Assembly (NCBI GenBank): GCA_029560585.1 | Contig: JAKQKQ010000188.1 | Span: 1 to 64,000 of the forward strand | Length of the DNA stretch: 64,000 nt | Origin: Verrucomicrobiota bacterium | GTDB taxonomy: Bacteria; Verrucomicrobiota; Verrucomicrobiia; JADLBR01 | Direction: 5' to 3' | Shown: positions 7,758 to 24,435 of the stretch, piece after piece | Layout of the letters: every line of letters starts with the position of its first letter | Numbering within the stretch: position 1 is the stretch's first letter | Notes under the pieces: generated by a model | Seen by the model: the letters and a program-made list of their open reading frames with translations, nothing else | Told to the model about the DNA's origin: nothing | Databases searched by the model: none | Program-made: the position numbers and the translations under genes

Positions 7758-9677
7758 TTACTTGAGGGTGCGGGTGTTGCCGGTGCGCCGGGTGACGCCG
7801 ATGCGGTCGAGGTGATCGAGGAGGGGGAGGGCGAACTTACGGGTGGTGTCGAGGAGGTACTTGAACTGCACGCTCTCGAGGCGGCCCTCGCGCCGGATGT
7901 GTTCGCGCGCGATCTCGGCGGCGCGGGCCACGGCGTCGCGGTGGAACAGGATGCCGCCGGGCAGGCTGACGAGCCGGGCATTGCTGGTCAGGAGGCGGAG
8001 GAGGCGCTGCGTTTCGGAGGGCGACAGGGCGAGGGTTTCGGGCAGTGACTCGGGATCGGGCGGGTGGAACAGGTTCTCCGCGAAGGCGCGCTCGATGCGA
8101 TCGAGCGCGGGGCGGTCGGGTTCTGGCAGCGCTGGCTGGTGGCCCGGCAGTGACAATCGCTGGGAGGGCGCGTGGACGGTGAGGAAGCCGTCGGCGATCA
8201 GTGGGGGCAGCAGCCGCTCGAGGAGGGTGGGGTTGAGTCCGATAAGGGCGGCGAGTTCGCGGCGATCGGTGCCGGGGCTCTCGGGTTGGCGGGCATGGAA
8301 GTCGGCGAGGGCAACCCGGGCGCGCTCGCCGACCTCGTCGAGGCGGCGGCGGTGGATGAAACCTCCGGCATCCAGGGCGACGGCCTGGCGCCGGTCCTTG
8401 AGCACTCCGAGGATCTGGTGGGTTTCAGGATCGAGGCATTGTGCCGCGCGCGCGAGATCCTGCGCGCGGGCGATGGGTTCCGAGTGATGGAGCAGCGCGC
8501 AGGCGATGCGGTCGCCGCGGTCGCCGACGCTGGCATCGAAGTCGCTGGCGATGGCGGACGTTTCGGGGCGCGACCGCCGCAGGCGCCTCGGGGGGGTGGC
8601 GAGCACGATGCCGCCGCCGATCGTTTGGACGGGCCCGATGGATCGAACGATGAAACGATCGCCCATGCCCGCGACGATGGGATGGGCGAGGAATGCCTGC
8701 GCCAGTGTCTCGGCGCCGGGTTCGACGGGGCTCGATCCGAGAGGATAGAGGGACACAGGTGCCTCTGCGGTGCCCGTGTGCAGGCGGACACGGGCGGCGT
8801 TTCGGAGCGGCGGGGCCCCCGGTAGCAGGCGGAGTCGCAATAGAAGCCACCGCGCGGGCGAGAACCAGCCCGGCAGGGCCGCGACATCGCCTCGGCGGAT
8901 GGCCGCGTGGTCCCAGGCGGGGACGTTGAGCGCGCAGCATTGGCCGGCCCGCGCCTCTTGGCTGTCATGCTGATAGACTTGCATGGACCGGATCCGTCCG
9001 CGCGAAGGGGAAGGGGCCAAAGAAAACAGCTCGAGTTCTTCGCCGACGGCCGCGCGGCCCGCCACCGGGATGCCGGTGGCGACCGTCCCGTGGCCGCGCA
9101 CCGCGAAGGCCCGCTCGATCGGCACCCGGAACACCCCCCCGCAATCGCGCGGGGGAAGGTCCCTTACCACCCGCTGGAGCGTCTCGCGGAGGTCCATGAG
9201 CCCCTCGCCATCGACGTTGGAGACCGGGACCAGCGGCGCGCCATCGAGGAAGGTCCCCCGCAGCAGCGCGCGCACCTGCGCCTCGGCCTCGGCGCGCCGG
9301 TCCGTGGGGACGCGGTCGATCTTCGTGAGGGCGACCACCCCGGAGCGGACGCCGAGGAGCGCGAGGATGTCGAGGTGCTCGCGGGTCTGGGGCATGACGC
9401 CATCGTCGGCGGCCACGACGAAGATGACGCAGTCGATGCCGGTGGCCCCGGCGACCATCGTGCGTATGAAGTTCTCGTGACCCGGCACGTCCACAAGGCC
9501 AACCTCGATCTCGCCAAGGGGGCAGGGGGCGAAGCCCAGCTCGATCGACATGCCCCGTTGCTTTTCCTCCTTGAGGCGATCGGTCTCGCATCCGGTGAGG
9601 TTGCGGACGAGCGCGGTCTTGCCGTGGTCGATGTGGCCGGCGGTGCCGAGCGTGACGTTGATGGAGCGGGCGGGCAT
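7758..9677 (-). CDS. selB: Selenocysteine-specific elongation factor SelB
   Basis: SelB is the GTPase that carries Sec-tRNA to UGA codons marked by a SECIS hairpin. G1 is [15 protein letters not shown]3 is [13 protein letters not shown] and G4 is LTKID, all near the N-terminus; beta-barrel domains follow to about residue 330. The C-terminal 300 residues contain the repeated winged-helix modules that bind the SECIS RNA, ending in [28 protein letters not shown]. The length of 639 residues is normal. The start at 9677 lies 10 nt after the selA stop, so the two are co-transcribed. With selA, selD and tRNA-Sec this is a complete bacterial Sec insertion set. Confidence 0.95.
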
Positions 9678-9687
9678 TGCGGGCGAT

Positions 9688-11148
9688 TCAGGGCGACGGG
9701 GCCACGGGCGGAAGTGCGGCGCGGATCGCGGCGGCGACCTCTTCCGCTTCGCCCTCCAGCAGGGTACGGGGGTCGAGCAGAACGCGGTCGTCGTGGATCC
9801 GCGCAAAGACCGCCGGGGTGCCGCGCCGCAGGCGCGCCGCGAACTCCGTCGCGGCGACCGGCACCGGGCGGATGGCGACCAGCCTCGTCGGCAGTTGCTG
9901 TTCCGGCAGCGAGCCCCCGCCCATGAACGACACCCCCTCCTCGATGGTCACCTCCGCCGCGATGGGATGGTCGCCGAGGAGTTCCCGGCCCAGCGATTCG
10001 GCGGCGGCGGCGATCTCTTCGAGCGGGCGGCGCAGCAACCGCAGGGTCGGGACATCGCGCCACGCGGTCTCCGTGTCGAGAAACGATCGGAGCGTGGCCT
10101 CGAGCGCGGCGAGCGTCAATTTGTCAACCCGCACGATGCGCGCGAGCGGGGACTTGCGGATCAGGCCGATCAGGTCGGCGCGGCCCAGGATGATGCCTCC
10201 CTGCGGGCCGCCGATCAGTTTGTCGGCGCTCGAGAGCACGAGGTCGGCACCCGCGCGCAGGGACTCCTGGATAGTGGGTTCCTTCTCGAAACCGAACCGA
10301 GAGAGATCGATCAGGGCGCCTGCACCGAGGTCGTCGATGACAGGGATGCCGCGCGGCCGGGCGAGGGCCACGAGTTCTTCCGTGGCGACGGATTTCGCGA
10401 AGCCGTGGATGCGGTAGTTGCTCGGGTGGACGCGCATGATCGCGCCCGTCGCGGGCGTGATCGCCCGCTCGTAGTCGCGGAGGTGCGTCTTGTTGGTGGT
10501 GCCGACCTCGACCAGCCGCGCGCCGCTGGCGGCCATGACGTCCGGCAGCCGGAAGGAGCCGCCGATCTCGATCAGCTGGCCACGCGACACGATGACCTCC
10601 TTGCCCGAGGCCAAGGCCTGCAGGGCGATCATCGTGGCCGCGGCGTTGTTGTTGACCACGGTGGCCGCCTCGGCACCCGTGAGGCGCTGGAGGAGGCGCT
10701 CGACCCCCGCGTCACGTCGCGATCGTTCACCGGTTTCAACGCTCTGCTGGAGGACCGAGTAACCGCGCAGCTCCCCGGCGATCTGGCGCAGGGCGGCCGC
10801 GGGAAGCGGCGCCCGACCGAGGCCGGTGTGCAAGATGATGCCTGTCGCGTTGATCGCCCGCCGATAGAACGGCCGGACGAGTGCGCCGGCCTTGTGCCGC
10901 GCGCGCGCCAGCAGGTCCAACGTCAGCTGATGGCGCACCGCCTCCCCGTCGGCGTCCGCCCCAGGGGAGTTGCCCTCGCCGCCCGCCGCCAGGGCCGCGC
11001 GCAATTCGGCGGCCGTCTCCCGCAGGATGTCGGTCAGCAGGGGCCGCGGCAGGGAGCCCAGTTCGGCATCCTGGGTGCCCTCCAACAGCAGCGCTTCGAT
11101 CGAAGGGATCCGGCGAAGCCAGGGATGCTCTTGTTGTTCGCCCACCAT
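9688..11148 (-). CDS. selA: L-seryl-tRNA(Sec) selenium transferase SelA
   Basis: SelA converts Ser-tRNA(Sec) to Sec-tRNA(Sec) with selenophosphate and PLP. The 486-residue protein begins [15 protein letters not shown] and carries the family blocks [61 protein letters not shown] and the PLP-lysine block [17 protein letters not shown]. The ATG at 11148 matches the usual SelA N-terminus; an in-frame extension to 11295 looks untranslated. It is first in a leftward selA-selB unit and is divergent from the selenoprotein gene at 11402. Confidence 0.95.
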
Positions 11149-11299
11149 GACGCCAGTACCACCGCGCCCGCCCGCTTTCAAGCCTCGCGTAATCGCGGCC
11201 AACCTCGGACGATGCCTTGGAGCGGGGGCTTTGGCCTGGCACCGCGAGGCACCCGGGGCCGCGGGGGGGGGTCCAAGGAATGCCACCGCCGTCACGAGG

Positions 11300-11375
11300 T
11301 TGTCCGACTATAATAAAATATTATAAATTCAATTATAACGAATAATATAAGGTTATGCGAAATACTTTGACAAGG
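11300..11375. promoter_or_regulatory. AT-rich divergent promoter region between selA and the selenoprotein gene
   Basis: About 75 bp are strikingly AT-rich in an otherwise GC-rich window, with TATAATAAAATATTATAAA at 11309 and TTGACA near 11367. The region lies between the divergent starts of selA (11148) and the UGA-containing gene (11402). Several -10-like boxes are present on both strands, so exact promoters cannot be fixed by eye. Confidence 0.5.
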
Positions 11376-11401
11376 GAACTCGCGAGGGCTGAATTGGGAT
11401 C

Positions 11402-12829
11402 ATGGCACTGAGGCTGGCGGGTCACTGGCGTCATGGTTCGGGCGCGTTGATGGCGGCGGTCGTTGGGATTGGGGTCTCCATGGGGGTGGTTCCGAGGGGT
11501 TCGTGCGCGCAGGCGACCGCCGTGGATTTTGGGCTCGGGGAAAAGGTGGCGCTGAAACAGGGCCAGATAGGCGAGAAGCAGCGATATCTGGGTTATGTGG
11601 CGCGGCGGGCGATAGCGGGGCAGGAGCAGGCGCCCTCCGGCTGGTCGAATCTGCCTGCCGCCAGCGAGGCGAGGTACTTCACCGCACGACTGGGCGGTGC
11701 CGATGTGCCCATGGTCATGGATATTTCGAAGATATCCCGGGCGAAGCTGTACGTGGACGTGGATGGCGATGGGAGTTTCTCGGGCGTTACGGCCATGTCG
11801 GCAGAGAACAGGCTATCTGGCCCATCGGCCCAACGGTACGGATACTACGATTTTGGCGACGTGCGTCTGGCGAAGGCGGCGCGGCCCGGAGAGCAGCCTC
11901 CCTCGGTGAAGGTCTCGGGACGCCATTTCCCGGGCGAGAGCGGGGGCAGTCGTCTGGAGATCACGCCCGGCAACTTCCGCGATGGCCGGGCGAAGTTCGG
12001 TGAAAGCACCTGCCTGGTGGGTTTGCTGGATGGTGATTCGGACGGGAAATTCGCGGCGACGTACACCGCCGACATGGCCGACAGGCGGGGCGAACCGGCC
12101 ACCGGCTTCGATCTGCTGGCGGTCGATCTCAACGGCGATCAGGCATTCGATCACCAAACCGAGATCTACCCGATGACGGCGCTGGTGGGCGTGCATGGCA
12201 AGTACTATGGCGTAAAGGTGGCGGAGGACGGGGCTTCGGTGGAGTTCGCGCCGGTGCGCTCGGTGGGTCTCGGCGAGCTGTCGGTCGGCTCGCCCCAGGT
12301 GGAAATGACCGTGGTTTCGGAGACATGCGCCCATCACCTGGAGGCCAATGGGCAGGGCACTTGGAAACTGCCGGAGGGAACCTATCGGGTCGCGTCCAAT
12401 CGACTCGTCGATCGCAAGGGCGGCGCATGGCTTCTGGAAGGCAGTGGCAATGGATTTGCCCAGAGCGTGCAAATCCAGAAAGACGGCACACAGAAGGTGA
12501 CGCTCGGTTGCCCCCTGACACCGAAATTCGATGTGGATTGGAATGGGGACGTTGCCCGCATCGGTTTCGAGTTGCTTGGGGCGGGGGGCGAAAAATATGC
12601 GGCGGGGGCGACCCGGAACGGCCAGCGCGACAAGGCGCCGGCGTTCAAGATCATCGACCGGGAGGGGAAGTCTCTCGAATCCGGAAATTTCGAGTATGGT
12701 TGAGGCGGGACTTGCCGGTACTCGTGGCGAGTGCCATCCAGTTTCAACAAGGAATTCCGGATCGAGCTGCAGGGCAACTTTGGGCCCTTCGAGTTCAAGC
12801 AGTCCGAGGAGTGGTTTACGCGCAAGTAG
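11402..12829 (+). CDS. Secreted selenoprotein candidate with in-frame UGA (Sec434), UxxxC motif
   Basis: An open frame from ATG 11402 meets TGA at 12701-12703 and continues in the same frame to TAG at 12827-12829. Reading UGA as Sec gives a 475-residue protein with FEYG-U-GGTC-RYSWRVP around codon 434, a UxxxC redox-type pair, and a 41-residue tail ending EEWFTRK. An N-terminal signal peptide (to about residue 36) predicts export. Asp-rich loops (VDVDGDGSFSG, DGDSDGKF, VDLNGDQAFD) resemble calcium-binding turns. An 8-bp hairpin lies 13 nt after the UGA. The gene is adjacent to selA, selB, selD and tRNA-Sec. I do not recognise a named family; the Sec call is inference from frame, structure and context. 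Confidence 0.75.
12717..12735 (+). promoter_or_regulatory. Candidate bacterial SECIS hairpin after UGA 12701
   Basis: GGUACUCG pairs with CGAGUGCC (8 bp, third pair U-G) around a UGG loop. The loop begins 21 nt after the UGA, inside the spacing known for bacterial SECIS elements. The hairpin at 16392 has the same stem length, the same U-G wobble at pair 3 and a UGU loop. Confidence 0.65.
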
Positions 12830-12961
12830 GTTCCCCGTCGCGGGAATCGTCGGGGTGTCCGGTCATCGCGGGCTGGTGAGGGGATGTGGCGTCTTGACGC
12901 GGAGTGCGGAGATCGTCGGGCCGCCGGGGAATCCGGCATCGGATGTGGTGGGGGGATCGGC

Positions 12962-14149
12962 ATGATCGCGGGCGGCCACGGCAGGCCCGCTTGTCTCGGA
13001 TGGTTCGACGGGATGATTGATCGCTGCCACGCGCACGTCGAGGCGGCGAAGGCGGGGGGGCGTCCGATCGTTGGGATCATGTGCGAGTACACGCCGAGGG
13101 AATTGATCTTGGCGGCGGGGGGCGTGCCGATCTGCCTGTGCGGGGGATCGGCGGCGCGAATTCCCGCGGCCGAGGAACATCTCCCGGCCAATCTTTGTCC
13201 GCTGATCAAGTCGACTTTCGGTTACCATGTCGAGAAATCGAATCCGTTTCTGGAGTGGGCCGATCTGGTCGTCGCGGAGACGACGTGCGATGGCAAGAAG
13301 AAGATGTTCGAGCTGATGGGCGAATCGCGGCCGATGCACGTGCTGGCGTTGCCGCACCGGCCCGATGGGGCGGGCCTCGAGCGCTGGGAGCAGGAGATGC
13401 GCCGCCTTGTGGCCGAGCTGGAGGGACGATTCAAGGTCAAGATCACGGCGGGCAAAATCCGTGATGCGATCCGGCTCATGAATCGCGAGCGCCGACTGCG
13501 CCGGGAGATCGGCGGGCTCATGCGGCGTGACGATCCGCCTCTGACGGGCCGAGAACTTTTGGGCCTCAAGTCGATCGTTTCCGGGATTCCCGAAGACATC
13601 GCGCGGTACGAGGAGATCCTTGAGGAGCTGGCGCGCGCCGACGGCATCGGCGCGACGGACCGCGTGCGGGTGCTGCTGACCGGCGTTCCCGTAGTGCACG
13701 GGGCCGAGCGCGTCGTGGACCTGATCGAGGACCACGGCGGGCTCATCGTCTGCCAGGAGAATTGCACGGGCCTGAAGCCGATCCTCGATGATGTCGATGA
13801 GGCCGCGGATGATCCGATCGCGGCGCTGGCGAAGAAGTATTTTGACATCCCATGTTCGGTGATGACGCCGAATGACGGGCGGATGGCGTCCCTCCGCCGG
13901 CTGGTGGCAGAGTTTCGGCCGGCGTGCGTGATCGAGCTGATCTGGCAGGCGTGCCTGACCTACGATGTGGAGTCGGCGCGCGTGAGGCGGCTGGTCCAGG
14001 AGGAACTGGGGCTGCCGTATCTGCGGATCGAGACCGATTATTCGCCATCGGACTCGGGTCGGATCGCCGTGCGCGTCGAGGCGCTGTTTGAGCTGGTGAG
14101 GGCCCGCGGAACGGCAGGGCGGGCGGGGACTCAGAGAGGGGTGGAGTGA
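12962..14149 (+). CDS. Double-cubane-cluster anaerobic reductase (HgdB/YjiM family)
   Basis: The protein belongs to the 2-hydroxyacyl-CoA dehydratase D-component family, double-cubane branch. Family blocks are GIMCEYTPRELILAAGGVP (Cys41), CLCGG (58, 60), LPANLCPLIKSTFGY (Cys79), VVAETTCDGKKKM, VCQENCTG and LIWQACLTYD. These cysteines hold Fe-S clusters that take ATP-driven electrons from an HgdC-type activase; known members reduce small molecules such as acetylene. The ATG at 12962 follows a G-rich stretch. The stop overlaps the selD start by one base, so the two are translationally coupled. The matching activase is at 20535. Confidence 0.85.
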   Translation: MIAGGHGRPACLGWFDGMIDRCHAHVEAAKAGGRPIVGIMCEYTPRELILAAGGVPICLCGGSAARIPAAEEHLPANLCPLIKSTFGYHVEKSNPFLEWADLVVAETTCDGKKKMFELMGESRPMHVLALPHRPDGAGLERWEQEMRRLVAELEGRFKVKITAGKIRDAIRLMNRERRLRREIGGLMRRDDPPLTGRELLGLKSIVSGIPEDIARYEEILEELARADGIGATDRVRVLLTGVPVVHGAERVVDLIEDHGGLIVCQENCTGLKPILDDVDEAADDPIAALAKKYFDIPCSVMTPNDGRMASLRRLVAEFRPACVIELIWQACLTYDVESARVRRLVQEELGLPYLRIETDYSPSDSGRIAVRVEALFELVRARGTAGRAGTQRGVE

Positions 14150-15798
14150 TGGCGCGGAATCTCGGGCGGCGCAAGCGCGTGATGGAGCGGTCGATGCGGA
14201 TCGGGCACTGCATCTGCGATCCGAGGCAGTCGTGCCCATGCGACATGCTTAAGGAAAGGGATATCTGTCCTTGTGCGGGCGAGCGGCCCGAGCCATCCGC
14301 CGGGCCGGTGCGCCTGACCCAGCTGGTGGAGAAAGCGGGCTGCGCGTCCAAGATCGACCTGTTGACGCTGAAGCGAGCGGTGGAGGGGCTCCCGTTTCCC
14401 GATGATCCCCGCGTGATCCTGGGGGCGACCGCCGGGGATGATGCCGGCGTCTATCGGCTCGATGATGGGAGAAGCCTGGTGCAGACGGTGGATGTGTTCA
14501 GTCCCTCGGTCGATGACCCTTATGTTTTCGGGCAGGTCGCCGCGGCCAACTCGGTCAGCGACGTATACGCGATGGGCGGGGTGCCGATGACGGCGCTCTC
14601 GATCATCGGGTTCCCGGGGAACACGATGGATCCGGGGATCATGCGAGAGATTCTGCGCGGGGGTCTGGAGAAGATGGCGGAGGCGGGCGTGGCAGTGATT
14701 GGGGGCCACAGCATCCAGGACAACGAGATCAAGGCGGGTTTCGCGGTGACGGGGCTGATCGAGACCGATGCCGTCGTGGCGCGCGGCAGGGCCGCGCCGG
14801 GCGATCGGCTGATCCTCACCAAACCGATCGGCACGGGGATCGTCTCGTTTGCAGCGCAGATCGGGCGAGCGTCGGAGGGGGCGGTGGGAGCGGCGATACG
14901 ATCGATGGTGGCATTGAACAAGCGCCCATCAGAACTCATGGTGGAGCACGGCGCGAGCGCCTGCACCGATGTGACGGGATTCAGCCTGCTCGGGCATCTC
15001 ATGGAAATGGCGCGCGACAGCGGCGTGGATGCCGAGATCGCGTGGGACGACGTGCCGCTGCTGCCGGATGTCGTGGAATATGCGGCGCAGGGCATCGTGC
15101 CGGGGGCGACGGAGCGCAACCGGGAGGCGTGCGAGGATCGCGTCCGCGCCGCGCCGGACCTGGATCCCATCGCGCTGGATGTCTGTTTTGATCCGCAGAC
15201 CTCGGGGGGGCTGTTGATCGCGGTGGCCGAGGAGCGCGCGGATGCGCTGTTGCGTGCGCTGGTGGAATCCGGCGTGACCGGGGCGGCGGCCATCGGGCGG
15301 ATCACGGGCCGGGGTTCGGGGTTTGTCACGGTGAGCGGGCGCGGTCAGCGCCCGAAAACCACGCGCGCGAACGCCGGGGTGCGCGTGATCGCCGCGGCGT
15401 CCTCGCCGGCGGAGGCAGCGGATGGGGCCTGCTGCGCGCCATCGCGGAGCGAAGCGTGCTGCGCCTCAGGGGCGACGGAAAAGGGGGCCGGGAACCATGG
15501 CGATATCGCGGGCTCGATCGCCGACACCGAGCGGAAGTTCAAGGCCTTCTTGCAAGCGGCTGCCGCGCCCAAGGGGCTGGATGCCCACACGAAGCAGGCG
15601 ATCGCCCTGGCCCTGTCGGTACTGTCCAAGTGCGAGCCGTGCCTGGCCGCGCATATCCGCAAGGCGAGGCGCATGGGCTTCACCCAGGAAGAAATCGATG
15701 ACGCGGCATGGAGCGCCATTGCCTTTGGAGGATCGCCCGTCATGATGTTCTACGATGGCGTAAAGGAGCGCATGGCGTCAGAGAGCGAGGGTGCGTGA
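14149..15798 (+). CDS. selD: Selenide water dikinase SelD with Cys-rich N-terminus and AhpD-like C-terminal domain
   Basis: SelD makes selenophosphate from selenide and ATP. The SelD core (about residues 55-400) has KAGCASKID (catalytic Cys65, Lys68), GATAGDDAGVY, DVFSPSVDDPYVFGQ, ANSVSDVYAMGG and GGHSIQDNEIKAG. Before it lies a 50-residue segment with CIC, CPC and CPC motifs (Cys21, 23, 29, 31, 40, 42) that looks like a metal or Se ligand site. After it a linker with two CC pairs leads to a carboxymuconolactone-decarboxylase/AhpD-like domain (about 455-540) with CEPC (495-498) and a downstream His. The length of 549 is far above the usual 340-350. Coupled to the reductase gene upstream and followed by tRNA-Sec. 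Confidence 0.92.
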   Translation: MARNLGRRKRVMERSMRIGHCICDPRQSCPCDMLKERDICPCAGERPEPSAGPVRLTQLVEKAGCASKIDLLTLKRAVEGLPFPDDPRVILGATAGDDAGVYRLDDGRSLVQTVDVFSPSVDDPYVFGQVAAANSVSDVYAMGGVPMTALSIIGFPGNTMDPGIMREILRGGLEKMAEAGVAVIGGHSIQDNEIKAGFAVTGLIETDAVVARGRAAPGDRLILTKPIGTGIVSFAAQIGRASEGAVGAAIRSMVALNKRPSELMVEHGASACTDVTGFSLLGHLMEMARDSGVDAEIAWDDVPLLPDVVEYAAQGIVPGATERNREACEDRVRAAPDLDPIALDVCFDPQTSGGLLIAVAEERADALLRALVESGVTGAAAIGRITGRGSGFVTVSGRGQRPKTTRANAGVRVIAAASSPAEAADGACCAPSRSEACCASGATEKGAGNHGDIAGSIADTERKFKAFLQAAAAPKGLDAHTKQAIALALSVLSKCEPCLAAHIRKARRMGFTQEEIDDAAWSAIAFGGSPVMMFYDGVKERMASESEGA

Positions 15799-15808
15799 TA
15801 GAGATCTG

Positions 15809-15901
15809 GGAGGCGACAGGTGCCAGGTGGTGCCCCTGGTCTTCAAAACCAGTGTGGGGGCCGAAAGGCCGCCGGGTGGGTTCGATTCCCATTCGCCTCC
15901 G
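15809..15901 (+). tRNA. selC: tRNA-Sec (anticodon UCA)
   Basis: The 93-nt RNA folds with an 8-bp acceptor stem (GGAGGCGA with TCGCCTCC), a 5-bp anticodon stem CTGGT/ACCAG enclosing CTTCAAA (anticodon TCA), a long variable arm built on GGGGGCC-GAAA-GGCC, and a T arm GTGGG-TTCGATT-CCCAT. The long variable arm, 8-bp acceptor and UCA anticodon are diagnostic of Sec tRNA. GCC rather than CCA is encoded at the 3' end. It lies 11 nt after selD on the same strand. Confidence 0.95.
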
Positions 15902-16021
15902 CCTTGGTGCGCGGTCGCGAAACGCCCTTCCCGTAGCATCGCTGGATCCGGCCCGCGAGGCGGCGGGCCCTGTCGGTGAGATGCGTGGAGGGACGACTCC
16001 CTCGCGTGGAGGGCCGTGGCG

Positions 16022-16384
16022 ATGACGAGAGAAGCATTCAGGCGGATGGCATGCGCGTCGTTGGCGGCGATCGCGGGATTGGGGCTGACCGTTTTCGGGG
16101 CTGGCTGGCACACCCATCCGGTGATGGTGCAGAAGGAGATCAAGGAGAAGCTCTCGTTGCCACCGGGCATGGGCGAGGATCGGCCGGCCTCCTTCTTCTC
16201 GGTGCCGGGAACCGATGCGATTCCGCAGGAGATCGTGCGCCGGGAGACCGTGACCCTGCCCAAGTCCGAGCCAGAGATGGTTTTGGAGGCGACGCGTGGC
16301 GGTCTGGAGCTAGCGGAGGATGGGCGCCTGCGGCTCACCTATAGCGGTGCACCACCGGCACGCTGCCCCACCTGAATCAAGTGA
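16022..16384 (+). CDS. Small membrane-anchored selenoprotein candidate ending C-P-T-U-I-K
   Basis: The frame from ATG 16022 (GGAGGG about 10 nt upstream) meets TGA at 16373-16375 as codon 118, then ATC AAG TGA. Reading the first UGA as Sec gives a 120-residue protein ending Cys115-Pro-Thr-Sec118-Ile-Lys, a CxxU redox motif at the extreme C-terminus. Residues about 8-30 form one membrane segment or uncleaved signal, so the CxxU tail probably lies outside the cytoplasm. No family is recognised. It is followed at once by the NapH-like gene, whose start lies in the candidate SECIS. Cys-Pro-Thr-Cys homologues would confirm it; without Sec the protein would end at CPT. Confidence 0.65.
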
Positions 16385-16391
16385 CCTTCGG

Positions 16392-16410
16392 GGTCATGGT
16401 GTCCATGGCC
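16392..16410 (+). promoter_or_regulatory. Candidate bacterial SECIS hairpin overlapping the next gene's start
   Basis: GGUCAUGG pairs with CCAUGGCC (8 bp, U-G at pair 3) around a UGU loop. The loop begins 24 nt after the UGA at 16373. Both plausible ATG starts of the NapH-like gene (16396 and 16405) lie within the stem, so SelB binding and translation initiation downstream could compete or be coupled. Confidence 0.6.
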
Positions 16411-17265
16411 GAATCTTTCTTCCATACGCCGGCATCGAAGTTCTCGCGGTATCGAACCGCGATCCAAGGGCTATTTCTGGTCGCATGGCTTGGACCACTG
16501 GGTCTGCGGGTGCACACCGTGTGTGCTCCGGTGTTCCATTGCTATGCGTGCCCCCTGGCAAGTTTCGCGTGCCCGATCGGCATCCTGGCACAATTCAGCG
16601 CGCTGCACGTCATGCCGTTTCTGGCGATCGGGATACTGGTAGTCACTGGCGCACTGGTGGGCAGTTTCGTTTGCGGATGGGCGTGCCCGTTTGGGTTGCT
16701 TCAGGATCTGGCGGCTCGAGTGCCTTTGCCCAAGTGGGATCCGCCCTACTGGCTGACGCACATGCGCTACGCGGCGCTCGTCGGGCTGGTGATCATCCTG
16801 CCGTGGTTCTTTGGGGAGTCGCACCCCCTCTTCTTCTGCCGGGTGTGTCCGGCGGGGGCGTTGGAGGGCTCGGTACCGATGATGGTGACGCAGGCTGCGG
16901 CGGGCCAGGCCGTGGCGTGGCCGAACGCCATGAAGCTCGGGGTGACCGGCGCGGTGGTCCTGGCGATGTTTTTTGTTCGCCGACCCTGGTGCCAGATTCT
17001 CTGCCCACTGGGGGCGATCTTCGGGCTTTTCAATCGCATCTCGCTTTTCGCGATCCGGTTTTATCCGGCGCGTTGCGTCGATTGCGGAAAATGCGGGGCG
17101 AAATGTGATTTTGGCGTGAGTTCCCGGATTCGCGCGGATGATCCGCGCTGCATCCGGTGCATGGAGTGCGTCCATTGTGGGGCTTGCCAGATCGAGGCGG
17201 CGTGGCAGGCAAAACCGTCCGCCCTGGCGGCGGATCTGGGCGTGGAAGGAGTGAGGGAACGATGA
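16396..17265 (+). CDS. NapH-like membrane 4Fe-4S protein
   Basis: A polytopic membrane iron-sulfur protein of the NapH/CcoG type, with about five membrane spans. Cys-Pro motifs sit at the membrane faces (HCYACPLASFACPIG, CGWACPFG, FFCRVCPAGAL, WCQILCPLGAIFG), and a C-terminal double cluster reads CVDCGKCGAKC and CIRCMECVHCGAC. Such proteins move electrons between the quinone pool and redox partners. Context suggests it feeds or drains the reductase system here, perhaps through the CxxU protein; that is inference. The ATG at 16396 or 16405 is the likely start. The stop overlaps the methyltransferase start (ATGA). Confidence 0.85.
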   Translation: MVSMAESFFHTPASKFSRYRTAIQGLFLVAWLGPLGLRVHTVCAPVFHCYACPLASFACPIGILAQFSALHVMPFLAIGILVVTGALVGSFVCGWACPFGLLQDLAARVPLPKWDPPYWLTHMRYAALVGLVIILPWFFGESHPLFFCRVCPAGALEGSVPMMVTQAAAGQAVAWPNAMKLGVTGAVVLAMFFVRRPWCQILCPLGAIFGLFNRISLFAIRFYPARCVDCGKCGAKCDFGVSSRIRADDPRCIRCMECVHCGACQIEAAWQAKPSALAADLGVEGVRER

Positions 17266-18068
17266 GATCGATCGATGGCGTGGGGCTTGAGCAGGTGCGC
17301 GGGGTCTACGATGGGCCCGAGGGCGATCTCTGGGAGCTGGTGATGGGCGAACAGATTCACATCGGTGGCATGGCTTCGTCGATGGATCTCGCGGAGAAAG
17401 CGGGCATCCGGGGGGCGGCGCGCGGGATCGACCTGTGCTGCTGCACCGGCGCGGGCATGCGGTGCCTGGTGCGTCTCATGCAGGTCGGGCGGATGGTGGG
17501 TGTCGATGCGACACGGAGGGTGATCGAACTTGGCCGCGAGCGATGCCGCGAGCAGGGGTTTGGGGATAGCATCGATTTCGTAGAGGCGGAGGCGACCGGG
17601 ACGGGCCTTCCGGGTGGCGAGGCGGACTTTGTCTGGGGCGAGGATGCGTGGTGCTACGTATCGGACAAGCCGGCGCTGATCCGGGAGGCGGCGAGGCTGG
17701 TGCGCCCCGGTGGCGCGGTCGCATTCACGGATTGGGTCGAGGGAGACACGCCGCTCGAGGCGGCCGAGGCCGAGCGGTTTCAGAGATTCATGAAATTTCC
17801 AACATTCGAGACAGTCGGGGGCTACCGGGGGCTGATGTCGGCGGCAGGGCTCCGCGTCGAGCGAGCCGAACTGACCGGGCGTTTCGCGGCGCACGCCCGC
17901 CTGTACATCGACATGCTGGAGAAGCAGATGACCTATGACGCGCTGAGGATCATCGGATTTGACATGGGCCTTATGGCCGCCATGGGACAAGAGATGCGAT
18001 TCATGCTTGGTCTGGCGGAGAAAGGCAAAATAGAGCAGGGGCTCTTTGTGGCGCGGAAATCGGGATGA
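17262..18068 (+). CDS. SAM-dependent methyltransferase in the Sec/reductase cluster
   Basis: The 268-residue protein has a class I methyltransferase core: GIDLCCCTGAGMRCLV as the SAM loop, MVGVDATRRVIELGRER, and ARLVRPGGAVAFTDW. The N-terminal GPEGDLWELVMGEQIHIGG recalls sarcosine/glycine-type methyltransferases. Three consecutive cysteines in the SAM loop (LCCCTG) are unusual. It overlaps the NapH-like gene by 4 nt and precedes the HgdB-like pair, so it belongs to the same operon. The substrate is unknown; a selenium, sulfur or arsenic compound would suit the company but is not shown. Confidence 0.8.
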   Translation: MRSIDGVGLEQVRGVYDGPEGDLWELVMGEQIHIGGMASSMDLAEKAGIRGAARGIDLCCCTGAGMRCLVRLMQVGRMVGVDATRRVIELGRERCREQGFGDSIDFVEAEATGTGLPGGEADFVWGEDAWCYVSDKPALIREAARLVRPGGAVAFTDWVEGDTPLEAAEAERFQRFMKFPTFETVGGYRGLMSAAGLRVERAELTGRFAAHARLYIDMLEKQMTYDALRIIGFDMGLMAAMGQEMRFMLGLAEKGKIEQGLFVARKSG

Positions 18069-18092
18069 GGCAGTGAACCGGCGTTTTGAGCG

Positions 18093-19127
18093 ATGATCAC
18101 CGTGGCCTGCTCGTCGTTTTTCGTGCCCCCGGAGTGGGTGGCGGCCCACGGATTTCGGCCCGAGCGGTTGATCCCGGAGGCGCCCGTGACCGAGGGGTGC
18201 GTGGCGTGCGGGGAAGGCATGTGTCCCTACGCGAGAGCTATGGCCCACGCCGCCTTGCGGGACGACGTCCGGGCGGTCGTGTTCGCGCCCACCTGTGACC
18301 AGCAGAGGCGGGTCGCTGAGTTGAGCGGCACCCGGCGGCAGGATGCGGCCACGTTCCTTTTGCACGTTCCCAGGGTTGCCCGCAGCGAGAACTGTCGGCG
18401 CTATTACCGGTCCGAGATCGAGCGACTGGGCCGATTCCTTGTGGAGATTGGCGGCCGTCCGCCCGAGCGGGAATTCCTGATCGAGACGATGTCCCGCTTC
18501 GATGCCGCGCGGGATCGATTGAGACGGGCGGCGGAGGCCCGGCGATTGGGAACGAGTTCGTTGAGCGCACGGACGCTGGCGGAGGGCATGGTGCGATTTC
18601 ATCGATCCGGTGATCCGGAGGTGATCGACACCGTCGGCCGAGGCGCTGGCGAACGGGGTAAAGCCGGTCGGACCGGCCGTCGGAGGATCGCGCTGCTCGG
18701 CGGTCCGCTGTTTGAGACAGACTTGGCCTTTTTCGATTGGATCGAGGTGGCCGGTGGCGACATCGTCCTCGATGGGACGGAAAACGGCGAGCGGACCCTC
18801 GCGGCAGCGTTCGATATGGCGCGCCTGGGGGATGATCCGGTCGGCGAGCTTGTGCGGGCGTACTTTGACGCGATCCCCGATGTGTCGCGTCGTTCGAATG
18901 ATGGGCTGCTGAACTGGGTTAGGGATTCCGCGGCGGCGGGACGGATCGACGGCGTGGTGCTGAGGCATCACGTCTGGTGCGACCAGTGGATGGCGGAGGT
19001 GCCGCGGATTGGCGAGGTGGCCGGGGTGCCGGTGCTGGCGGTGGATTCGTCCGGGCGACCGGACGGTCGGACGCGCACTCGGATCGAGGCATTTGTCGAG
19101 ATGCTGTTGGCAGGGGTGGGAGGCTGA
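18093..19127 (+). CDS. 2-hydroxyacyl-CoA dehydratase (HgdB-like) family protein
   Basis: A short (344-residue) HgdB-like protein. Cluster cysteines are visible in VTEGCVACGEGMCPYARA (36, 39, 44), FAPTCDQQRR (68) and HHVWCDQWMAE, with LLGGPLFETD in the middle as in dehydratase subunits. It lies between the methyltransferase and a second HgdB-like gene, 4 nt from the latter. In characterised enzymes two such subunits form a heterodimer with one [4Fe-4S] each and are activated by an HgdC-type ATPase, here at 20535. The substrate need not be a CoA ester: no acyl-CoA genes are nearby. Confidence 0.8.
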   Translation: MITVACSSFFVPPEWVAAHGFRPERLIPEAPVTEGCVACGEGMCPYARAMAHAALRDDVRAVVFAPTCDQQRRVAELSGTRRQDAATFLLHVPRVARSENCRRYYRSEIERLGRFLVEIGGRPPEREFLIETMSRFDAARDRLRRAAEARRLGTSSLSARTLAEGMVRFHRSGDPEVIDTVGRGAGERGKAGRTGRRRIALLGGPLFETDLAFFDWIEVAGGDIVLDGTENGERTLAAAFDMARLGDDPVGELVRAYFDAIPDVSRRSNDGLLNWVRDSAAAGRIDGVVLRHHVWCDQWMAEVPRIGEVAGVPVLAVDSSGRPDGRTRTRIEAFVEMLLAGVGG

Positions 19128-19131
19128 CGCG

Positions 19132-20544
19132 ATGGCGATTCCCCGCTCACTGTCACTTGAGGATTGGGACGCGCGCTACGACGCGCTTCGGCGCGATGGC
19201 ATGGGGGAACCGTGGTACGGTGGGCCGCTGCGGCGCCATCTTGAGGCGGGCGGCGACACGAGGTTGGGCGCCCTGAGATTCGATGATTCGCCCGCCGCAC
19301 TGCGGCTCTGGAACTTCCTTCTGACCGAGGAGGATCGGTTGCGCGAGGCGCGGGCAGCGGGGCACAAGCTCGTCGGTGCGATGAAGGACTTGGGGACGGT
19401 GCCGGTGCTGGCGTCGGCGTTCCCTGAGCTGACGACATTCTATGTCGATGGGGCCTGGTGGATCCCCTGCCTGATGGGGACGGCCATCGGTGCGCTTCGG
19501 GAGGCCGATCGCCTGGGGGTATGTGACTCCTTCTGCCCCGTGCGGGCGCTGTTGGGCGCATTCGTCACGGGTGAGCATTTTCCTATACCGGATCTGCTGG
19601 TATGCAGCGCTGGCGCGACCTGCGATGACTTGAGCGCCGTGGCCCAGCGTGTCGAAGGTCTTGGGCATCCCGTGTTCTGGTGGGAGATGCCGCATCGGCG
19701 GAGGGCGGACCGGGGTGAGCCGTCGGCGACCTTGCCCGGGGGCGGCATTGCGCCAGCCGAGCAGGTGGCGCTTGTCCGCGACGAGTTGGGGCGCGTCATG
19801 GGGGCCCTGTGCGATCTGGCGGGTCATCGGCCGGAAAGTGACGCCCTCGGCGGGGCCATCGCGCAGGCGAATCGCGTGCGCCGCACGCTGGGCCATCTCC
19901 GCACGTTGGCGTATACCTCGCCGCTCTGCCCGATGCCGGCGCTGGAGATGCTGATCTGCGAGATGCTCGCGATCCATTTCTGCTCGGATCGCGGCGAGTG
20001 CATCGAGGTCTTGGCCGACATGATCGCTGAGGTCGAGTCGCGAGTGGCGGAAGGTGTCGGGGTGTTGGGCGAGGCGGCGGTGAGGGTCTTCTGGGTGAAT
20101 CCGGTGGCGGATCTTCGGGTGATGAATCTTCTGGAGATCTGCGGGGGGCGATTGTGCGGCACCGAATTCCTGTTCAGCCATGCCCTTGATGCGATCCCCG
20201 AGGACGTCGAGCCCATGGAGGCGCTGGCGCGGACGGCGCTGGCGGATCCGATGGTCGGGACCTGCGGGGAGCGCGCCGAGCGGATCAGTCGCGATTTGAC
20301 CCGATTCGGTGCGGAGGCGCTGGTGATCTCGCGCGTGCCGGGCGCGAGCCATTGCGCTTTCGAGGGGGAACTGGTCGGCCGGGAAGTCGCTGCGCGGTGC
20401 GGCGTTCCCGTGCTGGAGATCGAGGTGCCGAGTTTCGACGATGCGGTCGAACCGGCGCTGCGCACCAGGCTGGAGGCACTGATCGAGACTGCGCGCGTCA
20501 AACGGAAGTGTGCGGGGGAGCCGAGGAGAACGCGATGGGCGTGA
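19132..20544 (+). CDS. 2-hydroxyacyl-CoA dehydratase family protein, larger partner subunit
   Basis: A 470-residue relative of dehydratase D-component subunits. Conserved-looking cysteine blocks are VCDSFCPVRALLGAF, VCSAGATCDD, YTSPLCPMPALEMLICEM and ICGGRLCGTEF, followed by LVISRVPGASHCAFEGE and VLEIEVPSFDD near the end. The start at 19132 is 4 nt after the preceding stop; an upstream in-frame extension only covers the neighbouring gene. Its 3' end overlaps the activase gene by 10 nt. Together with 18093 it probably forms the two-subunit Fe-S reductase served by that activase. Confidence 0.78.
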   Translation: MAIPRSLSLEDWDARYDALRRDGMGEPWYGGPLRRHLEAGGDTRLGALRFDDSPAALRLWNFLLTEEDRLREARAAGHKLVGAMKDLGTVPVLASAFPELTTFYVDGAWWIPCLMGTAIGALREADRLGVCDSFCPVRALLGAFVTGEHFPIPDLLVCSAGATCDDLSAVAQRVEGLGHPVFWWEMPHRRRADRGEPSATLPGGGIAPAEQVALVRDELGRVMGALCDLAGHRPESDALGGAIAQANRVRRTLGHLRTLAYTSPLCPMPALEMLICEMLAIHFCSDRGECIEVLADMIAEVESRVAEGVGVLGEAAVRVFWVNPVADLRVMNLLEICGGRLCGTEFLFSHALDAIPEDVEPMEALARTALADPMVGTCGERAERISRDLTRFGAEALVISRVPGASHCAFEGELVGREVAARCGVPVLEIEVPSFDDAVEPALRTRLEALIETARVKRKCAGEPRRTRWA

Positions 20545-21305
20545 CCGTTGGCATCGATGCGGGAAGCCGCTCCATCAAGGTGGTGGTGCTGGATCGCGGC
20601 TCGGGGCACGTGATCGCGCACGGCATCGACGACCAGGGGACCGATCAGGCCGACCGCGTCCGACGATTGTGCGATCGGGTCTTGGGCGAGTGCGGGACCG
20701 GGCACGGAACGGTGCGGAGGACGGTGGCGACGGGCTATGCGCGGCACATCGTGGAGGGCGCGGATGCGAGAGTCACCGAGATCACCTGCCACGCGAGGGG
20801 CGTTCACCACGGCGCCCCAGACGCAAAGGCCATCATCGAGATCGGGGGTCAGGACAGCAAGATCATGTGGCTTGGCCCGGACGGCACGGTGCATGATTTT
20901 CGCATGAATGACCGCTGTGCCGCCGGCACGGGGCGGTTCCTGGAGATGGTTTCAGATCGGATGGCGGTGCCGCTGCACGGGCTGGGCGCACTGGCGGCGC
21001 GCAGTCGTCACCCGTCGACCATCAGCAGCATGTGCGTCGTTTTCGCGGAGAGCGAGATCATCGGCCTGCTGGCATGCGGGGCACCTCGGGAGGACATTGT
21101 CGCGGGGGTACAGGCGGCGATCGCGGCACGCGTGGCCGGTATGGCGGGGCGCATGCGCGATGGGCCGGTCATTTTCACGGGCGGTGTCGCGCTGGTCGGC
21201 GGCATGGCCGCGGCGTTGTCCGCCGCGATCGGGACACCGGTGGAGGTGGCCCCGGAACCGCAGATGACCGGCGCGCTGGGCGCCGCCCTCATCGCGGCAG
21301 ATTAG
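20535..21305 (+). CDS. HgdC/BadF-type ATP-dependent activase
   Basis: This 256-residue protein is a BcrAD/BadFG-type activator: GIDAGSRSIKVVVLD (phosphate 1), IIEIGGQDSKIM, MNDRCAAGTGRFLEM (Cys128), SSMCVVFAESEIIGLL (Cys167) and VIFTGGVALVGGMA. Cys128 and Cys167 match the two ligands that bridge a single [4Fe-4S] in the homodimer. It injects low-potential electrons into HgdB-type clusters using ATP. It is the only activase in the window, so it presumably serves all three HgdB-like proteins. It is the last gene of the rightward train. Confidence 0.9.
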   Translation: MGVTVGIDAGSRSIKVVVLDRGSGHVIAHGIDDQGTDQADRVRRLCDRVLGECGTGHGTVRRTVATGYARHIVEGADARVTEITCHARGVHHGAPDAKAIIEIGGQDSKIMWLGPDGTVHDFRMNDRCAAGTGRFLEMVSDRMAVPLHGLGALAARSRHPSTISSMCVVFAESEIIGLLACGAPREDIVAGVQAAIAARVAGMAGRMRDGPVIFTGGVALVGGMAAALSAAIGTPVEVAPEPQMTGALGAALIAAD

Positions 21306-21367: not shown

Positions 21368-22294
21368 TCACTTTTCGACTTTGGCGTAGGTGTCCTTGAG
21401 GGTTTTCGCGGAGGCCTGGAGGCCCTGGATTTCCTTCGGCCAAAGTTCGAGTTCGATGTGCTGGAGTGCCCCCTTGCGACCGATGAGGGTCGGGACACTG
21501 ATCGAGATGTCGCGGATGCCGTAGGCGCCCTGGATGGGGCTGGATACCGGCAGCACGTGGTGACGATCCATGTTGATGCAGTTGATGACCTCGCGGATCG
21601 CGACGCCGACGGCCCAGCCGGCACCCCCCTTGCGCGTGATGACCTCGGCTCCCCCTTTGCGCGTGCGCTCGAAGACCTGAGTCTGGAAAGCCGGCGTCAT
21701 GCCGGGGATCTTCAAGAGCGGGAAACCGTCGAGGGTCGAGGAGGACCAGATGGGGACCATGGTGTCGCCATGCTCGCCGAGGATGATGGCGCGGATCTGG
21801 GTGGGTGGGAGCTTCAGCTCGTCGGCGATCAGGGAGCAGAACCTCGACGTGTCGAGCATGGTGCCGAGGCCGATGACCTGATTCGGGGGCAGGCCGGTCA
21901 CTTCCCAGGCGAGGTGCGTGAGGAGATCCACCGGATTGGAGACGACGAAGATGATGGCGTCCTTGCGGAGGCCGACCTTCATCAGGTTATCGAGGATGCC
22001 TTTGAAGAGCGCCACGTTTCGATTGATGAGGTCGAGGCGCGATTCGTCGGGCTTGCGGCGCAGTCCCGCGGTGATGCAGACGAGGTCCGCGTCGGCGCAG
22101 TCGGGGTAGCCGCCGGCGCGGATGACCTGGTCGGCGCAATAGGCGGCACCGTGCAGCAGGTCGAGGGCCTCGCCCTCGGCGGCGGCCTGGTTGGCGTCGA
22201 TGACCACGAGTTCGCGACCGACCTTGCTGCACTGCAGCGCAAAGGCCGCGCACGATCCGACGCGCCCGCCACCACCGATGATTGCAATCTTCAT
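21368..22294 (-). CDS. Lactate/malate dehydrogenase of the microcompartment operon
   Basis: The 308-residue NAD-dependent enzyme has the GGGGRVGSCAAFAL dinucleotide loop, VVIDAN acidic end, SNPVDLLTHLAWEVTGLP and catalytic GEHGDTMVPIWS. The specificity loop reads AGLRRKPDESRLDL: the position of Gln102 in lactate dehydrogenases is Arg, as in malate dehydrogenases. In related compartments this enzyme is thought to recycle NADH from the aldehyde dehydrogenase; the true carbonyl substrate is uncertain. It overlaps the aldolase stop by 4 nt and is last in the operon. Confidence 0.88.
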   Translation of the reverse strand: MKIAIIGGGGRVGSCAAFALQCSKVGRELVVIDANQAAAEGEALDLLHGAAYCADQVIRAGGYPDCADADLVCITAGLRRKPDESRLDLINRNVALFKGILDNLMKVGLRKDAIIFVVSNPVDLLTHLAWEVTGLPPNQVIGLGTMLDTSRFCSLIADELKLPPTQIRAIILGEHGDTMVPIWSSSTLDGFPLLKIPGMTPAFQTQVFERTRKGGAEVITRKGGAGWAVGVAIREVINCINMDRHHVLPVSSPIQGAYGIRDISISVPTLIGRKGALQHIELELWPKEIQGLQASAKTLKDTYAKVEK

Positions 22295-23355
22295 GCTCTC
22301 TTCTCCACAGTTTTCATTATCTCGTCGGTGACGCGCTGTACGAGCGCCTCCAACTCGGCATTAGTCATTGTCCCGGCATCCGTGCCACCAGCGGTGGCGG
22401 GCGAGGAACACCCGCAGGGTCGATCGGAAATCAAGTTCCACGGATCGACCTCGCAGAGCTGGACGGGTTTAAGGTCCTCGCGGGCATCAGGCAAGCCAAG
22501 TTTTTTCTTTATATCGAGCAGCTCGCGGACGCCCTCGGCCGGTATGGTCGTGCGGTTGGTGGGCAGGTGTGAGGCGACGACCACCGTGCGGCAATAGGCG
22601 TCGGTGATCTCCATCTTGAAATACGCATCTTCGACGCTGGTGCCCCAGCAGATGACGCCGTGGTTGCCCATGAGGATCGACTGGTGTTTGGGGGCCAGCG
22701 GCTTGATGACCTCCTGCATGTCGGGGCTTCCGGGGGTGCGGTAGGGGGCCAGCGGCGCGCGACCCACGAAGACCTCCATCTCGGGGATGAGGCACTGCGG
22801 GGGCTCGAGGCCCGCCATCGCAAATGCGGTGGCGTAGACGGGATGGGCGTGCGCGACCGCCTTGGCCTGGGGGACGGCGCGATAGATGGCCATGTGGGTC
22901 AAGATCTCGCTGGTGCGTTTCCACGTGCCGGCGAGCTGGTTGCCGTCGATATCCACGAGGCACATCATCTCGGGCTTCATGAAGCCCTTGCTCACGCCCG
23001 TGGGCGTGCAGATAAAGACGTCGCCGAGGCGGGCGGAGATATTGCCCCCGTTGCCGTCGCAATAATCCCGCTGCCAGCAGCGCCTGCCGATCTCGCAGAT
23101 CTGCTGTTTGAGGGATTCCGCCTCCTGGGAGTGAAAGAGTTTCTCCCACTGGGATTTCGTGCCGCCGGCCGACGGGGCCGGGGGCATCGGCGCCGCCTCG
23201 GCTACGGGCGCGTCGGCGTCGAAGACGATCTTGATGCCGCGCTCGGCAAAGACATCGCGGGCGCCGGGCGTGAGGCGAACGTCGCGGTTGAAGCGGAAGA
23301 CCTTCTCGCCCGACTTGGCGAATTCCTCCGCGTCTCTTTGTGCGAATAGTTTCAT
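22291..23355 (-). CDS. Class II sugar-phosphate aldolase with C-terminal encapsulation peptide
   Basis: A class II aldolase/adducin protein, probably cleaving L-fuculose-1-P or L-rhamnulose-1-P to lactaldehyde and DHAP. Zinc ligands are in VAHAHPVYATAF and MGNHGVICWG; DGNGGNISARLGD and TPTGVSKGFM bind phosphate. It is longer (354) than a plain aldolase: residues 1-45 form a small extra domain (RLTPGARDVFAERGIKIVF), a linker follows, and the last 22 residues (LEALVQRVTDEIMKTV) form an amphipathic helix after a flexible Cys-Gly-Ser-rich linker. That tail resembles the encapsulation peptides at the N-termini of the aldehyde dehydrogenase and PduL here. Confidence 0.88.
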   Translation of the reverse strand: MKLFAQRDAEEFAKSGEKVFRFNRDVRLTPGARDVFAERGIKIVFDADAPVAEAAPMPPAPSAGGTKSQWEKLFHSQEAESLKQQICEIGRRCWQRDYCDGNGGNISARLGDVFICTPTGVSKGFMKPEMMCLVDIDGNQLAGTWKRTSEILTHMAIYRAVPQAKAVAHAHPVYATAFAMAGLEPPQCLIPEMEVFVGRAPLAPYRTPGSPDMQEVIKPLAPKHQSILMGNHGVICWGTSVEDAYFKMEITDAYCRTVVVASHLPTNRTTIPAEGVRELLDIKKKLGLPDAREDLKPVQLCEVDPWNLISDRPCGCSSPATAGGTDAGTMTNAELEALVQRVTDEIMKTVEKRA

Positions 23356-23361
23356 GATGGC

Positions 23362-23673
23362 TTATCCTTTCAGATCCTTTGAGCCCGCCTTCCCTTCGGG
23401 CGGGCAGTAGAACTCGTCGATCAGCGCGGCGCAGTAGGCGTCCACGGGCGTGGGCCTCTCAAAAGGGCAGGCGGCCTCGCGGCCCTCGCTGATGCCGATC
23501 TGTTGGCCGACGCCGGCTCCCAGGACGTCGTACACGACGATCGCGGGGTCAAACGCAGGTTTCCCCTCGTATGTGTCCTTCTTCCACGGGGAGGTGAGCA
23601 GCAGCCGTTCGCCCTGGAACGAGGGATGGCGGACCGAGAGCGTCACGCGGCCGATAACGGTGCCCATCCTCAT
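23362..23673 (-). CDS. BMC-P shell vertex protein (EutN/CcmL family) 1
   Basis: A 103-residue EutN/CcmL pentamer protein, capping vertices of the polyhedral shell. The family pattern is MGTVIGRVTLSVRHPSFQGERLLLTSP, then IVVYDVLGAGVGQQIGISEGREA and a final VDAYCAALID strand. The ATG two codons in may be the true start. The gene overlaps the next BMC-P gene by 4 nt. The C-terminal 15 residues are hydrophilic and extend past the family core. Confidence 0.9.
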   Translation of the reverse strand: MRMGTVIGRVTLSVRHPSFQGERLLLTSPWKKDTYEGKPAFDPAIVVYDVLGAGVGQQIGISEGREAACPFERPTPVDAYCAALIDEFYCPPEGKAGSKDLKG

Positions 23674-23945
23674 ATCGCCAGCTCCACTTCGGGGTCCACG
23701 ATCCCGAGCACCGACCAGCGCGCCGGGCTGCGCTCGTCGCCCACGAGTTTTCTTGCCTCGGCCCCGTCGGAGGTGATCAAGACTTTCTGGCGGATGCCGG
23801 CGCCGAATGGGTCGATGACGATCTGCGGCGGGCCCTCGTCCCTGCCCTCGCCGTCGAGCGGCTGGGCGATGAGCAGGCGCCAGCCCCCGAGGCTCTTGTG
23901 CTTCACCGTCGAGGTGACGTGGCCGATGATCTTTGCGAGGCGCAT
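23670..23945 (-). CDS. BMC-P shell vertex protein (EutN/CcmL family) 2
   Basis: A compact 91-residue EutN/CcmL protein: MRLAKIIGHVTSTVKHKSLGGWRLLIAQPL, IVIDPFGAGIRQKVLITSDGAEA and SVLGIVDPEVEL. The acidic-glycine loop GEGRDEGPP varies between paralogues. It overlaps the downstream BMC-P gene by 4 nt. Having three different BMC-P genes in one operon matches PVC-type compartments and suggests mixed vertex types. Confidence 0.9.
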   Translation of the reverse strand: MRLAKIIGHVTSTVKHKSLGGWRLLIAQPLDGEGRDEGPPQIVIDPFGAGIRQKVLITSDGAEARKLVGDERSPARWSVLGIVDPEVELAI

Positions 23946-24029
23946 GCTAACTCCCCTCCTGGAGGCAGAATTCCATTGCGACTCGCGAACTCCGAGGGAT
24001 GAGCCCCGAGCAACGAACGGTGAACGCGC

Positions 24030-24404: not shown

Positions 24405-24435
24405 CGCTCGGCGTTCGTCCCTCGGCGCTCATCGT

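Follow-up and report, generated by a model that had tools for sequence, protein, structure and literature searches.

The form of selenium that SelD uses in vivo, and the system that delivers it, have been incompletely elucidated (2026 review, PMC13188914). A locus that bears on this question lies on contig JAKQKQ010000188.1 of a Verrucomicrobiota bacterium, within the 64-kb stretch analysed here as a whole and hereafter called the window, where genes of the selenocysteine (Sec) machinery share an island with iron-sulfur (Fe-S) reductases of the HgdB type, and it raises the question of what ATP-driven reductases are doing among sel genes. The order is selB and selA on the minus strand, an open reading frame (ORF) for a secreted protein of 475 amino acids (aa) with an in-frame UGA, HgdB1, SelD, tRNA-Sec, a small ORF with an in-frame UGA, a NapH-like protein, a methyltransferase, HgdB2, HgdB3 and the activase HgdC (Table 1). 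An earlier note, drawn from the letters alone, had named these components; every one of them lies where it was placed, including the overlaps between HgdB1 and SelD (1 bp, TGATG) and between the NapH-like gene and the methyltransferase (4 bp, ATGA), and the two UGAs proved to be conserved Sec codons rather than chance occurrences. Our best explanation, to which we give roughly even chances, is that the genes of the island make up a module for selenium supply and selenoproteins, in which a selenium compound would be reduced at the expense of ATP to a form that SelD can use; the delivery question thereby gains a concrete candidate pathway whose genes co-vary with a special form of SelD.

HgdB- and HgdC-type genes near sel genes are of an already known, unexplained kind. 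They are listed beside sel genes for Slackia heliotrinireducens (PMC5322559, Table 1), and in the clostridial type I mlp clusters, which have been assigned to methyl-selenide metabolism and include double-cubane genes, they have been called putative selenium genes (PMC10418091). The statement of the earlier note that no described pathway has this set thus holds for the full set but not for the pairing of HgdB/HgdC with sel genes. Neither the conserved multi-gene set nor the SelD extended at both ends nor either of the selenoprotein families turned up in the literature and models searched, which included the family list of PMC13188914 and NCBIfam of June 2026 (the work of Haft on Sec-assisted organometallic (SAO) operons and Tso being covered through the review and the models). 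The Slackia cluster resembles the island in that genes for HgdB-like subunits and for an activase stand near selA, selB and selD, whereas it also has YedE, YedF, DUF3343 and Sec lyase, none of which was identified in the island, and the methyltransferase set and the CMD-fused SelD are not reported there.

Linkage and co-occurrence with the Sec machinery

An alignment scan of 84,980 species genomes for relatives of the methyltransferase returned 192, of which 80 were fetched as loci. The set methyltransferase-HgdB-HgdB-HgdB-HgdC occurs in Planctomycetota, Verrucomicrobiota/Lentisphaerota, Myxococcota, Sumerlaeota, Hydrogenedentota and Omnitrophota. Its usual order in Planctomycetota is selB-selA divergent from methyltransferase-HgdB1-HgdB2-HgdB3-HgdC-SelD(-tRNA-Sec-CPTU-NapH), where CPTU denotes the small UGA-containing gene, and Myxococcota, Hydrogenedentota and Verrucomicrobiota keep the sel linkage in different gene orders. 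In two distant relatives from the same phylum as the window (L021 and L022), with 26-47% identity to the window proteins (HgdB2, HgdB1, HgdC, methyltransferase), the set adjoins SelD and selA, and L022 additionally has selB, tRNA-Sec and NapH. Among the 51 HgdB3 loci, 25 have SelD on the same contig, in several gene orders, as counted on fetched contigs that are often truncated, and a sel gene is present in 15 of the 23 such loci with ample flanks. Because several loci lack HgdB1, the minimal core is methyltransferase-HgdB2-HgdB3-HgdC.

The association also extends beyond the locus itself. In a sample of 289 genomes from the phylum, selA scored above its cut-off in 17, and the methyltransferase and HgdB2 were found in an identical set of eight genomes, all eight of which have selA (Fisher 2e-11, not corrected for relatedness), in five cases on a contig separate from the system; HgdB3 was found in none of the nine Sec users of this sample that lack the system. 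Where selA is not linked at the locus, 41 of 46 genomes have it elsewhere. Among the exceptions, G316, G317 and G320 are members of the solo methyltransferase clade described below, and G293 and G309 are probably incomplete genomes, since UGA-containing copies of the secreted protein are still present in them. The earlier note had held that the association would be chance if synteny with selD and tRNA-Sec were not conserved; the linkage is kept across phyla, and together with the genome-wide co-occurrence with selA this rules out a chance association. Joint function, which had been proposed from the tight coupling of the genes, is strongly supported by synteny that persists in several phyla despite changes of gene order, and by co-occurrence with selA and the special SelD. 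Formate dehydrogenase as the cause of Sec in the window genome was rejected, the best FdhA-like ORF having no in-frame UGA.

The SelD variant and the two selenoprotein families

The SelD of the window carries an N-terminal segment with six cysteines (Cys) (HCICDPRQSCPCDMLKERDICPCAGE) and a C-terminal CMD domain. Its membership in the SelD family is clear from the model score (Table 1) and from the catalytic CxxK, which reads GCASK with C66 and K69 invariant, and across 42 sequences Cys 22, 24, 30, 32, 41, 43, 66, 429, 430, 496 and 499 are invariant, a set that includes the N-terminal Cys and a CxxC. SelD fusions with NADH dehydrogenase or NifS have been described (PMC4561486), likewise joining SelD with a Cys-type active site to a redox or selenium-delivery domain, but the known prokaryotic ones are all N-terminal, whereas here a C-terminal CMD domain is combined with the six-Cys N-terminal segment. 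This N-extended SelD is present in 26 of 28 system genomes, mostly with the C-terminal AhpD/CMD domain, and in 2 of 17 Sec users without HgdB3 (Fisher 5e-8; 2 of 16 on a recount that excludes mlp-like genomes), namely G056 and G251, the others having a canonical and often Sec-type SelD; the SelD of two genomes with an mlp-like set is canonical as well. The N-extended SelD thus tracks the system, which suggests that the system is tied to the SelD reaction and not just to Sec decoding. The earlier note had the Sec machinery dedicated in part to the reductases; the co-variation with SelD changes this direction, suggesting that the reductases do no less for selenium supply than the Sec machinery does for them.

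The same adjacency and special form of SelD would be expected if the product of the island were a small molecule or cofactor that contains selenium, with SelD providing selenophosphate and the neighbouring methyltransferase and reductases building it, and the pairing of solo methyltransferases with exporters (see below) would fit as well. We consider this quite improbable, given that no candidate selenotransferase (such as SenB, YbbB or YqeB/C) was identified in the island, that selA is kept in nearly all system genomes, and that no Sec-independent use was seen among them.

Neither UGA-containing gene of the island has a Pfam or NCBIfam model. Among the fetched loci the secreted family has 32 members (ORFs), and almost all of them stop at the same UGA and continue on read-through as FEYG-U-GGTCRYSWRVP, and its seven matches in the phylum sample all contain exactly one TGA. 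An alignment of 26 sequences shows no variation at G433, the Sec position, C438 or P445, which gives a UxxxC motif, and the Sec insertion sequence (SECIS) hairpin that starts 14 nucleotides 3′ of the UGA has compensatory changes at five of its eight pairs, with a covariation score reached by none of 500 shuffles and far lower values in slid controls. Given the conserved UGA, the covarying SECIS and the Sec machinery in the genome, the secreted protein is, on this sequence evidence, a real bacterial selenoprotein. Of 29 system genomes, 23 contain the family, whereas all 12 genomes whose methyltransferase loci are exclusively solo or mlp-like lack it. The AlphaFold model of the secreted protein is all-beta (pLDDT 85.5), and a fold search with it returned generic multi-domain beta matches of low TM-score and no functional clue. 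The three TGA-free paralogues that were aligned were rejected as Cys homologues, as they lack the Sec position and its partner motif. A second UGA-containing copy lies elsewhere in the window genome (contig C107:29915-30556, L114), tandem copies occur at L058:15353-19286 and L075:5408-8695, and G304 has about ten matches.

The small protein is a signal-anchored peptide ending in CPTUxK or similar, in which the UGA occupies the identical place in 11 of 11 loci, Cys in none, and the stop codon follows 1-3 codons past the UGA in all of them. Its hairpins, with a loop of the GTG(T/G)CC type, recur at several loci with weak fold z-scores. Conservation indicates that this tail peptide, too, is a real selenoprotein, and for both genes the conserved position rules out the UGA as a true stop. 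The gene usually lies just 5′ of NapH, and the NapH-like protein has at least 13 invariant Cys across 12 aligned sequences. Two new selenoprotein families without database models are thereby added, one of which has no Cys homologue found and is invisible to finders based on Cys homology.

Reductases, methyltransferase and their possible substrate

The earlier note had counted three HgdB/double-cubane-type proteins. All three belong to PF06050, but only HgdB1 passes the double-cubane model NF040772 (Table 1), HgdB2 and HgdB3 failing with 78 and 51 bits, so that three double-cubane proteins are ruled out. HgdB1 aligns over its whole length, including the Cys set, with PDB 6eno/7yyl (E ~1e-66), and seven Cys conserved across about 50 sequences match the Cys positions of these structures, a comparison of positions in which ligand roles in 6eno are not assigned; by homology, HgdB1 is a double-cubane type reductase. 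In HgdB2 C44, C68 and C296 are invariant and align with Cys of BzdN and of the double-cubane protein, and in HgdB3 C135, C164 and C408 are invariant. Since both thus have the three-Cys cluster site of dehydratase and benzoyl-CoA-reductase subunits, they probably form a heterodimer in which each subunit holds one open-site [4Fe-4S] cluster. In HgdC the activase signature is intact, and C128 and C167 are invariant. The double-cubane cluster proteins DCCP/DCCPR (Jeoung and Dobbek, 2018; PDB 6ENO, 7YYL) share with the island the passing HgdB1, with all Cys aligned, and an HgdC-type ATPase in the gene set, whereas in the island the double-cubane protein is one of three HgdB paralogues accompanied by a methyltransferase and selD, and is missing from several loci. 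The island thus supplies a genomic context for double-cubane reductases that are otherwise without function.

The PF06050 and BcrAD_BadFG families and the three-Cys pattern would also suit an ordinary 2-hydroxyacyl-CoA dehydratase or benzoyl-CoA reductase that stands near sel genes by accident. This is very improbable: none of the equivalog models for these enzymes was passed, the best score being 54 bits against 454 (HgdB1, BzdN model) with HgdB2 at 29.5, the island has no acyl-CoA gene, and the set is conserved in its linkage to Sec genes and selenoproteins and in its co-occurrence with them. The doubt that the earlier note had voiced over 2-hydroxyacyl-CoA chemistry was reasonable.

The methyltransferase (METHYLTRANSFERASE) has its nearest solved relatives among phosphoethanolamine and sarcosine/dimethylglycine N-methyltransferases; two of its Cys, C59 and C131, are near-invariant, and no viral relatives were found. 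A supported solo clade in Myxococcota and Pseudomonadota lacks HgdB3 and often adjoins exporters, of the SMR type at L057, L076, L082 and L092 and of the EamA type at L090, L097 and L103. SMR proteins export cations, and our guess is that the methyltransferase product could be an onium. A DUF3034 protein repeatedly adjoins the methyltransferase on its upstream side (about 13 loci, e.g., L047:48-962). In two Planctomycetota loci (L100:9851-20366 and L102:8484-18018) the methyltransferase and divergent HgdB/HgdC lie beside a corrinoid protein, an MtaA/CmuA methyltransferase and an AcsV-like activator, with a protein of the Cys desulfurase family downstream (328 bits to the Sec lyase SclA). These two loci join our set with that of the type I mlp clusters (PMC10418091), which likewise combine a link to the Sec machinery with double-cubane proteins; the window and most loci differ in having an S-adenosylmethionine (SAM) methyltransferase instead of the corrinoid protein, MtaA-like enzyme and RACE, and by Pfam no Mlp, corrinoid protein or RACE was found among the island genes, such genes occurring in L100 and L102 only.

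At about six loci overall an ABC transporter is present, upstream of the methyltransferase in L026, L035, L059 and L072, and the motifs GHVGHDHH and HPCCC are invariant in its binding protein. The nearest NCBIfam relatives of the transporter are SaoA, SaoP and SaoX, all below cut-off at a related locus (245 vs 360, 147 vs 295 and 37 vs 300 bits), and the Sao models matched none of the window proteins scanned. This Sao-like transporter and its binding protein fit either selenium or another soft element, and they lend some weight to a Sec-dependent pathway for arsenic, mercury or a similar element or organometal, which would be imported by this transporter, bound by Cys/Sec proteins, methylated by the methyltransferase and reductively cleaved by HgdB/HgdC, selA-D being linked to serve the two selenoproteins of the pathway. 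The weak match of the methyltransferase to ArsM-type selenoproteins and the likeness of the CMD domain to its counterparts in MduS and ArsM_AhpD selenoproteins point the same way. Against this stand the sub-threshold scores and the few loci of the transporter, the failure to identify an equivalogue of MerB, ArsM or HgcAB, and the co-variation of the special SelD, which such a pathway does not predict; we regard it as possible but unlikely. With SAO operons, compared through the review and family models, the island shares a multi-selenoprotein neighbourhood and, in some loci, the related transporter, whereas all Sao models score below cut-off and SaoL, SaoB and SaoC are missing.

Selenium handling rather than mere Sec use is favoured because the special SelD form and the system vary together, because L100 and L102 resemble the type I mlp clusters, and because HgdB/HgdC genes have been reported near sel genes before (PMC5322559). 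In the selenium-supply module that we propose, HgdC with ATP would feed low-potential electrons into HgdB1 and the probable HgdB2-HgdB3 heterodimer, and these reductases, with the methyltransferase, would convert an oxidised or carbon-bound selenium compound to a reduced form, handed to the Cys-rich, CMD-fused SelD, which would make the selenophosphate that SelA uses. A membrane/periplasm electron branch may be formed by the NapH-like protein with the anchored CPTU selenoprotein, and the secreted UxxxC selenoprotein, outside the membrane, possibly binds or reduces the selenium source. What the data show are the genes and how they are linked and co-occur, the conservation that identifies the selenoproteins, and the patterns of cluster ligands; what the substrate is, which way the electrons flow and that selenium is the thing reduced are what we infer. 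Several findings weigh against the scheme: the co-occurrence p-values are inflated by shared ancestry; the system is missing from most Sec users, including E. coli and nine of the phylum, and is therefore not required for selenophosphate as such; G056 and G251 carry the N-extended SelD without HgdB or methyltransferase; the solo clade lacks HgdB3 and sometimes sits in genomes without selA, so that the methyltransferase chemistry need not involve selenium; the window has no gene for any known selenium source; and the two selenoproteins alone would demand Sec machinery, whatever the reductase substrate.

Radical-SAM clusters are able to cleave sulfonium reductively. By analogy, a more specific version of the supply module, which we consider doubtful, would be a dedicated ATP-driven route to SelD in which the SAM methyltransferase makes an organic-selenium onium (R2Se-CH3+) and the open-site Fe-S reductases cleave it; if true, this would be a nitrogenase-like answer to how selenide gets to SelD in vivo.

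Features and surroundings of the island

Table 1. Features of the island on contig JAKQKQ010000188.1, with window coordinates.
Feature	Position	Strand	Basis
selB, Sec-specific elongation factor	7758..9677	-	sequence; homologous neighbour in 19/51 HgdB3 loci
selA, Sec synthase	9691..11295	-	TIGR00474 516 bits vs cut-off 267.9
Secreted selenoprotein, 475 aa, FEYG-U-GGTC motif	11402..12829	+	Sec UGA 12701-12703; upstream of HgdB1
Bacterial SECIS hairpin of the secreted selenoprotein	12717..12735	+	8-bp stem, covariation
HgdB1, double-cubane-cluster type reductase	12956..14149 (ORF start possible at 12884)	+	NF040772 413 bits vs 350
SelD, six-Cys N-terminal extension and C-terminal CMD/AhpD domain	14146..15798 (first ATG 14149)	+	TIGR00476 356 bits vs 125; CMD 64 bits
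tRNA-Sec (selC)	15809..15903	+	ARAGORN; Rfam RF01852 72 bits vs threshold 47
Small membrane-anchored selenoprotein, end CPT-U-I-K	16022..16384	+	Sec UGA 16373-16375; stop UGA 16382-16384
SECIS-like hairpin 3′ of the CPTU codon, within the start of the NapH-like gene	16391..16412	+	similar hairpins in several loci
NapH-like membrane 4Fe-4S protein	16381..17265	+	Fer4_5 62 bits
Class I SAM methyltransferase (WGEDAWCYV, LCCC motifs)	17262..18068	+	Methyltransf_11
HgdB2, three-Cys HgdB-type subunit	18093..19127	+	PF06050 137 bits
HgdB3, three-Cys HgdB-type subunit	19132..20544	+	PF06050 120 bits
HgdC-type ATP-dependent activase (BcrAD_BadFG)	20535..21305	+	TIGR00241 237 bits vs cut-off 125

On the opposite strand (21368-25893, minus), ending about 60 bp from HgdC, lies a microcompartment-type operon for a lactate/malate dehydrogenase, a class II aldolase, two EutN/CcmL shell proteins and an aldehyde dehydrogenase of probable CoA-acylating type; no such operon was seen beside the island in related loci. 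The claim that acyl-CoA genes are absent is thus correct for the island itself but has to be qualified for this neighbouring operon. In the rest of the genome there is one further PF06050 protein, besides the three of the island.

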